Shown here: positions 69-2,089 of the stretch, piece after piece
Layout of the letters: each line of letters starts with the position of its first letter
How positions within the stretch are numbered: the stretch's first letter is position 1
NCBI GenBank assembly: GCA_030835305.1
Contig: JAURPJ010000062.1
Span: 1-64,000 of the forward strand
Origin: Verrucomicrobiota bacterium
GTDB lineage: Bacteria; Verrucomicrobiota; Verrucomicrobiia; Verrucomicrobiales; Akkermansiaceae
DNA: 64,000 nucleotides
Direction: 5' to 3'
The notes under the pieces: generated by a model
Database searches by the model: none
What the model was told of the DNA's origin: nothing
What the model saw: the letters and a program-made list of their open reading frames with translations, nothing else
Position numbers and translations under genes: made by a program

Positions 69-326
69 ATGCCTCAACCACCCGTTCCAACCTACCGAGT
101 CGAATACGAGCCATCCCGTGGCTCATGGCTGCTGACTGGCCCTGTGGGTGCAAAAGGTTACCTGAGATATACAACCGCCCGGGATGCCGCTGATTACGCT
201 CGTTGGGATGCCCGTGATAGGGGTGGCAACATTGATGTGTTTGACCAAAAAGGTCAGCTTTTTAGGAAAATTAGCGTCAAAGCTAATGATTCAGTAGCTG
301 CTGGTTTGGTTCTGCCGTCAGTTTAG
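69..326 (+). CDS. Small hypothetical protein, 85 aa
   Basis: I do not recognise this protein. It has no signal peptide or membrane segment. Aromatic and glycine residues are spread as in a small soluble alpha/beta domain (YRVEYEPSRGSW near the start, then a charged stretch with alternating Asp and Arg). The ATG is one base after the preceding stop, with purine-rich sequence upstream that can act as ribosome binding site. It lies between the window edge and the 3' end of a tRNA gene, where islands often insert, so it may be island cargo. That is inference; no integrase is visible. Confidence 0.55.
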   Translation: MPQPPVPTYRVEYEPSRGSWLLTGPVGAKGYLRYTTARDAADYARWDARDRGGNIDVFDQKGQLFRKISVKANDSVAAGLVLPSV

Positions 327-455: not shown

Positions 456-548
456 TGGCGGAGAGGGAAAGAATCGAACTCACCAAGGACAGATTGCCCT
501 TCAACGGTTTTGAAAACCGCGGCGACCACCAGGCACGCAGCACTCTCC
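456..548 (-). tRNA. selC: tRNA-Sec-like gene, anticodon TCA, 93 nt, encoded CCA
   Basis: On the minus strand the sequence begins GGAGAGTG and ends CTCTCCGCCA. The anticodon stem-loop GCGGT-TTTCAAA-ACCGT gives anticodon TCA, which reads UGA. CTGGTGG in the D arm resembles bacterial tRNA-Sec. A long variable arm (AAGGGCA/TGTCCTT, 7 pairs, loop ATC) and a TTCGATT T-loop are present. Oddities: only 12 nt separate the T-loop from the discriminator G where bacterial tRNA-Sec has 13. Acceptor pair 7 is T/C, and the T stem has a T/T mismatch. The D stem needs a bulged T. It could be a functional tRNA-Sec, an allo-tRNA-like variant, or a decaying copy. No selA, selB or selD is in the window. Confidence 0.7.
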
Positions 549-610: not shown

Positions 611-2089
611 TTAAATCGGCGCAGAGCGGAGTTTTTTGAAGGCCGATCCAATATAATCGATGGTGGTGATGGCTGATAGCGACTCTTCGGATTGACGGGG
701 TAAGGCCAACTCGGAGGCGCAGCCGCATAACCAGGACCCGGTTTTAGCGGCTTCAAGAGGTTCGAATCCCCGCGCCATTAAGGCTGCGAGAAGTCCTGAT
801 AAGACATCTCCTTGCCCTCCGGTCGCCATTCCGGGAGTGCCGGTGGTATTGTAGGCTATGGGGGAACTTCGATTCGTGACGATCGTGCGGGCGCCTTTGA
901 AGAGGAGGGTTGCCTCGCTCTGGCTTGTGAATTTTCGGGCAATGGCGGCCCGGTTGTTCGGTTCATTTCCACCGCGGAGAAGTCGTGCTATCTCGCCAGC
1001 GTGGGGAGTCACTAGGTGATTCGCCCGGAGTGTTGAAATATGCGATTGCCGGGCAATCAAGTTAAGAGCATCGGCATCAATCACAGTGGGCCCTTTGAAG
1101 TTTTTGATGACCGAGAGGATGTCCTGCCCGGCTTTTCCAAGACCTGGGCCGACAGCAAGTGCATCGAGATTTTCGTGGAGTGCTTCGACGTAGCGATCCA
1201 CCGGCTTTACCATAATTTCTACCGGGATGAGCGGCAGAATTAGGGGGTAGTCTTCTTTTCTAACAAACAAGGTGATGAGCCCACCTCCTCCGCGCAGTGC
1301 TCCGAGTGAGGTCAATGCTGCGGCTCCGGCCAATCCTTGTGAGCCAGCGATCATGCCAATCCGGCCGGCTTGGCCTTTGTGGAATTCGTAGGGCCTGGAG
1401 AGCTTCTCGACAGGCAGAGTCGCCGGGGTGATGAGATGGTCTTCACCGGCTTTCCAATTGCTCAAGCCGTTCAGGGTGAGGAGTGCCAGTGATCCTACGT
1501 AATCGGTGGCTTGGTCTGCGATGAGTCCAATTTTTGGCGATCCAAGGGTGCAAGTGAGATTCGCACGAACGGTTTGTCTTCCACACTGGCCAGTGTCGCA
1601 ATTCAGTCCGGATGGCACATCGACCGCAGCAACAAAGACCATTCTCTTTTGGCTCAATCCGTTGATTTCGCCTGCCAATTTGGAAAGAGGTTCGCGGAGA
1701 TCTCCTTTGGTGCCGATCCCCAGAAGTCCATCGAGAATGACAAAGGGGCCGGGCTTGTAAAACTCTTCAAGTGAATCAAGGGGCTGCGCGGATCCCAACT
1801 CATGCCACTTCTTTGCGAGTAATCCCTTCATTTCGGATGGCTGAATGGCACTTCGAACCGAGACTTCCCATCCAGCTTCTTTAAAGTGACGGAGAGCGAC
1901 AAGGGCATCCGCACCATTATTGCCGGTTCCGACGACTGCGACGGCCCTGCCCGGTGGGGTTTCTGCAAATCTCCCCAGAATTTCCTGTGCGATTTTTTGG
2001 CCGGCCATATTCATCAATGATTCGGCTGCGACTCCGGACTCGAAGAGCGCATCTTCGGCCGCATACATTTCCCTGGAAGTCAGAAACAT
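611..2089 (-). CDS. nnr: Bifunctional NAD(P)H-hydrate epimerase / ADP-dependent dehydratase
   Basis: This enzyme repairs NADH and NADPH damaged by hydration: the N-terminal domain interconverts R and S hydrates and the C-terminal domain dehydrates the S form using ADP. In the YjeF_N domain (about 1-215) GTGNNGADAL is at residues 54-63, DGLLGIGTKG at 120-129 and DVPSG at 157-161. The ribokinase-like C-terminal domain shows KGQAGRIG, AVGPGLG, VIDADALN and the GTPGMATGGQGDVLSG nucleotide-binding motif near residues 425-440. Length 492 is normal for the fused form. The start lies 6 bp after the yceH stop, so the two form an operon. Cytoplasmic. Confidence 0.95.
   Translation of the reverse strand: MFLTSREMYAAEDALFESGVAAESLMNMAGQKIAQEILGRFAETPPGRAVAVVGTGNNGADALVALRHFKEAGWEVSVRSAIQPSEMKGLLAKKWHELGSAQPLDSLEEFYKPGPFVILDGLLGIGTKGDLREPLSKLAGEINGLSQKRMVFVAAVDVPSGLNCDTGQCGRQTVRANLTCTLGSPKIGLIADQATDYVGSLALLTLNGLSNWKAGEDHLITPATLPVEKLSRPYEFHKGQAGRIGMIAGSQGLAGAAALTSLGALRGGGGLITLFVRKEDYPLILPLIPVEIMVKPVDRYVEALHENLDALAVGPGLGKAGQDILSVIKNFKGPTVIDADALNLIARQSHISTLRANHLVTPHAGEIARLLRGGNEPNNRAAIARKFTSQSEATLLFKGARTIVTNRSSPIAYNTTGTPGMATGGQGDVLSGLLAALMARGFEPLEAAKTGSWLCGCASELALPRQSEESLSAITTIDYIGSAFKKLRSAPI

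Follow-up and report, generated by a model that had tools for sequence, protein, structure and literature searches.

Background

By the textbook rule, an acceptor/T branch of 13 layers lets SelA and SelB recognise the selenocysteine (Sec) tRNA and keeps EF-Tu off it. In E. coli the pairs 7-66, 49-65 and 50-64 are EF-Tu antideterminants, the pairs 49-65, 50-64 and 51-63 modulate how strongly EF-Tu binds, and a tRNA-Sec with a shortened acceptor stem is bound by EF-Tu in place of SelB (PMC9976931, PMC6267555). UGA read-through is lost when the E. coli tRNA-Sec is deprived of one acceptor pair (PMC6267555). Bacterial tRNA-Sec with a 12-bp AT-stem (7/5) have nevertheless been described (Santesmasses et al. 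2017, Secmarker; PMC5330540), the groups named there including Gamma- and Alphaproteobacteria, Clostridiales, Spirochaetes, Rubrobacter and Dehalogenimonas, and 8/4 forms of tRNA-Sec are covered in a review (PMC7609411). Verrucomicrobia are not named among the 12-bp and 8/4 forms in the relevant sections of these two sources, and our literature search returned no paper on Verrucomicrobia forms. The gene described here lies in a 64,000-nt stretch of a Verrucomicrobiota genome, which we call the window, and judging from sequence comparisons it is very probably the single, functional selC of that genome and a member of the 12-layer 7/5 subtype.

The tRNA gene and its surroundings

The selC gene for tRNA-Sec(UCA) occupies 456-548 (-) and has 93 nt including an encoded CCA (GGAGAGUGCUGCGUGCCUGGUGGUCGCCGCGGUUUUCAAAACCGUUGAAGGGCAAUCUGUCCUUGGUGAGUUCGAUUCUUUCCCUCUCCGCCA, read from 548 to 456), as indicated by ARAGORN, Rfam RF01852 and the orthologues. 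ARAGORN calls tRNA-SeC(tca) at exactly these positions, and the full RF01852 model matches 548-460 with 52.9 bits (E = 7e-9), against a gathering score of 47 bits. The covariance check suggested by the original prediction thus came out above the cut-off and not well below it, and the UCA anticodon, long variable arm and general tRNA-Sec character that it had read from the sequence were borne out.

All parts of the gene are on the (-) strand. The 5' strand of the acceptor stem, GGAGAG (543-548, pairs 1-6), has its partner at 460-465 according to the pair counts in our alignment, and is followed by U7 (542), which lies opposite C66 (466). The D arm (522-538, Rfam alignment) has a 6-bp stem with a single bulged nucleotide, U14, and the 4-nt loop UGGU, and 4 of the 6 stem pairs show two-sided changes in the alignment of 55 sequences introduced below. 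The anticodon stem-loop (504-520) has 100% of its cells paired in the alignment, and the anticodon UCA (511-513; sequence and ARAGORN) reads UGA. The variable arm (485-501) is long, with 6 bp in the ARAGORN fold, which is an identity feature for SerRS. The T stem consists of GUGAG (49-53, 479-483) and CUUUC (61-65, 467-471); U50 faces U64, and A52-U62 stands where all relatives have G52-C62, so that the pair is preserved. The 3' strand of the acceptor stem, CCUCUCC (66-72, 460-466), has only 7 nt, hence the 12-layer branch, and the discriminator G73 (459) is G in all 55 aligned sequences. Between the T loop and G73 there are consequently 12 nt (CUUUCCCUCUCC) and not the 13 layers of acceptor and T stem of the canonical 8/5 form. 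This spacing, the mismatches in the acceptor stem (7·66, U·C) and in the T stem (50·64, U·U), and the bulge in the D stem are all present as first noticed.

In the genome (4.45 Mb, 97% complete) no other RF01852 match exceeds the cut-off. Seven further matches, the next best by score, were examined as loci and are tRNAs for Leu, Ser and Gly, below the cut-off. No second tRNA-Sec was found in this search of the genome, and the perfect copy elsewhere that had been named as the case against the gene is absent. Since the standard model scores the window tRNA only slightly over its cut-off, related forms may be missed.

The gene is 455 nt from the contig end, and no sigma-70-like promoter adjoining it was seen in a promoter and terminator scan. 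A small ORF at 69-326 (+) of 85 aa (MPQPPVPTYRVEYEPSRGSW...) is convergent with selC at the contig end; it has one weak relative, near the tRNA-Sec in L037. A tRNA-like stretch at 715-777 (+), ending GGTTCGAATCCCCGCGCCA, was rejected as a chance resemblance: conserved codons of nnr (MARGFEPLEAAK) read in antisense account for it, and no related copy of it was found in the genome.

Fold of the acceptor/T branch

We collected 55 distinct tRNAs with a 12-nt branch, mostly from Verrucomicrobiales, and their alignment speaks for 7/5 rather than 8/4, with 7·66 and 50·64 as conserved mismatches. Under 7/5, 12 pairs show two-sided change, compared with 4.4 in shuffles and 4-6 in slid versions of the pairing. 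The T-stem pair 49-65 is paired in 55/55 and is swapped from G-C to C-G in L040 and L173. The main group has U·C, A·C or C·C at 7·66 and never a pair (51/51 aligned sequences that are ungapped here), nearly all of its members have U·U at 50·64, and 51·63 is often mismatched in the 12-layer forms of Verrucomicrobiales. In two distant relatives, L115 and L120, the 7/5 branch is clean, with G7-C66 and a full T stem. The modelled energies are -28.8 kcal/mol for 7/5, -28.0 kcal/mol with U7 bulged and G8-C66 formed, and -24.3 kcal/mol for 8/4; the unconstrained minimum of -32.9 kcal/mol is none of these three folds and has the D, anticodon and variable arms rearranged.

An alternative hypothesis could be that the gene is a functional tRNA-Sec of 8/4 form. 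Its acceptor stem would then have 8 layers, closed by G8-C65 and with U7·C66 as a mismatch, and its T stem would be reduced to 4 pairs and a bulged U50, much as in the minor 8/4 type of tRNA-Sec that has a 51a bulge. G8-C65 could indeed form in 47/55 sequences and G49·U64 in 49/55, but the remaining ones (8/55 unpaired at 8-65 and 6/55 at 49·64) show no compensating change, whereas 49-65 is always paired; 8-65 is broken in both sequences that carry C49-G65, the distant relatives L113, L115 and L120 have full 5-bp T stems, and the modelled energy is the poorer one. We regard the 8/4 fold as unlikely, though less firmly so for the window species taken by itself. The original prediction had offered the two forms side by side; its 12-pair branch stands and is better read as 7/5, with 8/4 less supported by both covariation and energy.

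At least three acceptor/T-branch architectures of tRNA-Sec were seen in the phylum (L098-L120), namely 13-nt 8/5, 13-nt with a T-stem bulge, and 12-nt 7/5; mismatches in the centre of the branch are found in some 12-nt forms and not in others. Canonical 13-nt forms occur elsewhere in the phylum (L098-L105, L107, L109-L111 and L114), and among them L101-L105 have 13 nt with an apparent bulge on the 5' side of the T stem. In the tRNA-Sec at L037:1501-1594, one additional C in the 3' strand of the acceptor stem brings the count to 13 nt. This extra C is likely to be an assembly error, because selD of the same assembly (G014:C8:1589-2519) is also split by a frame shift.

Selenocysteine machinery in the same genome

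The original prediction saw no sel genes, which holds for the window and not for the genome. Profile searches of the genome found selB (C111:67063-68970, 317.7 bits, over the cut-off), selA (C116:2031-3377, 488.8 bits) and selD (C27:15132-16061, 385.6 bits), all on other contigs of the draft than selC, and the same set was found across the genus. selD has one in-frame TGA in the context ELASCGG-U-ASKLGQ. The gene for the alpha subunit of formate dehydrogenase, fdhA (C110:13984-16002, 732.3 bits), also has one, in the context DNCSRA-U-HAPTVAGL, which corresponds to CCARV-U-HGPSVAGL in the record of E. coli FdhF. A hairpin 3' of the fdhA UGA presents the loop GGUCU at nt 22-26 from the UGA together with U17, in the same register as the loop and U17 of the E. 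coli fdhF SECIS, and one of its stem pairs, G-C here, is C-G in L081 and L083 via two synonymous third-position changes. The SECIS hairpin of selD is weaker and weakly defined. A moeA-like molybdopterin gene near selB (L017:6598-7749, on contig C111 of G000, this genome) would be fitting for a molybdenum-dependent formate dehydrogenase containing Sec.

The genome search proposed at the outset, for selA, selB, selD and a UGA-containing gene with a SECIS element, thus turned up every item, the last being fdhA. Recoding of UGA as Sec in this genome, which had been left open, is strongly supported by the presence of selA, selB and selD, by in-frame UGA at canonical Sec positions of fdhA and selD, and by the fdhF-type SECIS; the codon would be read as Sec at least in fdhA, and probably in selD.

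The tRNA and the machinery occur together among relatives as well. In a set of 38 genomes, comprising this one and its relatives, a tRNA-Sec was found in 23 of the 29 with selA and/or selB (all 23 matches checked with ARAGORN) and in none of the 9 with neither. The six genomes with selA and/or selB but no tRNA-Sec match are mostly incomplete drafts; G020, however, is 93% complete. Weaker RF01852 matches in relatives without selA and selB were set aside, being ordinary Ser and Leu tRNAs where checked.

These data bear on the reading of the gene as an allo-tRNA, raised originally, or as a selC*-type tRNA, either of which would insert serine or cysteine at UGA instead of Sec. The 12-pair branch and long variable arm do resemble those of allo-tRNAs, and a selC* tRNA-Cys may carry UCA, as indicated in a review (PMC7609411). 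However, selC* has U73 where this gene has G73, allo-tRNAs are 8/4 or 9/3 and have no Sec role whereas 7/5 is favoured here, the complete selA/selB/selD set and the UGA genes with SECIS would have no other tRNA-Sec to serve them, and presence among relatives tracks selA and selB. We therefore consider this reading very improbable.

Conservation among relatives

Other genomes of the genus, and many across the order, carry the 12-nt branch with mismatches in the same positions. In a scan of named genomes the 12-nt form was found at 89 loci, which with few exceptions are labelled Verrucomicrobiales, Akkermansiaceae or other Verrucomicrobia. The pattern used in the scan fixed most of the 3' strand, so the variability of that strand is not readable from these 89 loci; the Rfam-based searches are free of that bias. 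Some genomes are probably in both sets, and we therefore counted distinct sequences and gave no weight to the raw totals. The isolates Roseibacillus persicicus, R. ishigakijimensis, Persicirhabdus sediminis and Rubritalea marina carry the 12-nt form together with selB and a UGA-containing selD, as does one MAG labelled Akkermansia muciniphila. The 12-pair tRNA-Sec is almost certainly a conserved variant common to dozens of related bacteria with Sec machinery.

The pattern was also found in MAGs labelled Deltaproteobacteria, Planctomycetota and Lentisphaerales (L166, L176, L188 and L210), which could reflect mislabelled bins, contamination or transfer.

selC adjoins nnr in the window, in the close relatives L038 and L140 (nnr 96% identical) and in the more distant L020 and L182, and it is directly upstream of selD in G028, G031 and G035. 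A tRNA-Sec copy in decay, or what is left of a tRNA where an element integrated, might be suspected from mismatches in two stems and from a position so near the contig end, but it is the least credible reading, as the same mismatches are kept across the order, the change peculiar to this species leaves 52-62 paired, the nnr-selC neighbourhood persists in the four relatives named, and the tRNA 3' end has no second copy (attachment site) in the genome at up to 3 mismatches. Drift without selection and an integration scar, both raised by the original prediction, are thus not upheld. Taken together, the sole copy, the sel set, the order-wide conservation and the pair-keeping A52-U62 argue for a functional selC and against an allo-tRNA, a drifting copy or an integration remnant.

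A possible substitute for the 13th layer

We infer from the sequence data that selC is expressed, charged and used in decoding. Following the pathway as outlined in PMC7609411, SerRS would charge the tRNA with serine by way of G73 and the long variable arm, SelA would convert Ser-tRNA to Sec-tRNA with the help of the 6-bp D stem, and SelB would deliver Sec-tRNA to an in-frame UGA followed 3' by a SECIS hairpin.

With only 12 layers in its branch, this tRNA would lack the length signal by which Sec-tRNA of E. coli escapes EF-Tu. The conserved mismatches at 7·66, 50·64 and often 51·63 fall in the same layers as the E. coli EF-Tu antideterminants, which by analogy suggests that they may stand in for the missing 13th pair in EF-Tu rejection; judging from their position, they may replace length as the discriminating feature. 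Because the shortened E. coli form loses read-through, a 12-layer tRNA would need a SelA and a SelB that are fitted to it. We speculate, with considerable doubt, that in Verrucomicrobiales mid-helix mismatches replace the 13th pair in keeping Sec-tRNA off EF-Tu and on SelB, and that SelA and SelB have adapted accordingly. A conserved natural 12-layer tRNA-Sec in one order, with cultured species included, makes it possible to test what else could do the work of the 13th layer, and this tRNA is a candidate scaffold for EF-Tu-compatible Sec insertion.

Comparison with known systems

The gene shares with canonical 8/5 tRNA-Sec such as E. coli selC the anticodon, G73, a 6-bp D stem with 4-nt loop and the long variable arm. 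E. coli selC and the 13-nt loci of the phylum, however, count 13 nt and 13 pairs where the acceptor/T branch of this gene counts 12. The 8/4 and 9/3 allo-tRNAs (Mukai et al. 2017), as they are presented in PMC7609411, have a 12-pair branch and a long variable arm in common with it, but they are Ser or Ala isoacceptors whose anticodons vary and which take no part in the decoding of Sec, and the branch here is 7/5. According to the same review, selC* tRNA-Cys has a tRNA-Sec-like body, with UCA in some cases, but carries U73 and an 8/4 branch with a 51a bulge, where we find G73 and 7/5 (PMC7609411).

The closest match is with the published 12-bp forms. Like those described in PMC5330540, the gene has 7 residues between the 5-bp T stem and G73, 12 layers (7/5 being favoured over 8/4 by covariation), UCA and sel genes in the same genome. 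The examples in that source mostly have an acceptor-stem bulge and lie near selA and selB, and in some the linker has an additional nucleotide or the D stem is bulged (13a). In contrast to them, the present gene is from Verrucomicrobiota, has mismatched 7·66 and 50·64 layers, and adjoins nnr on a contig other than those of selA and selB. A 12-bp tRNA-Sec is thus already known in other bacterial groups, as represented in PMC5330540, and the form found in Verrucomicrobiales adds to that kind.
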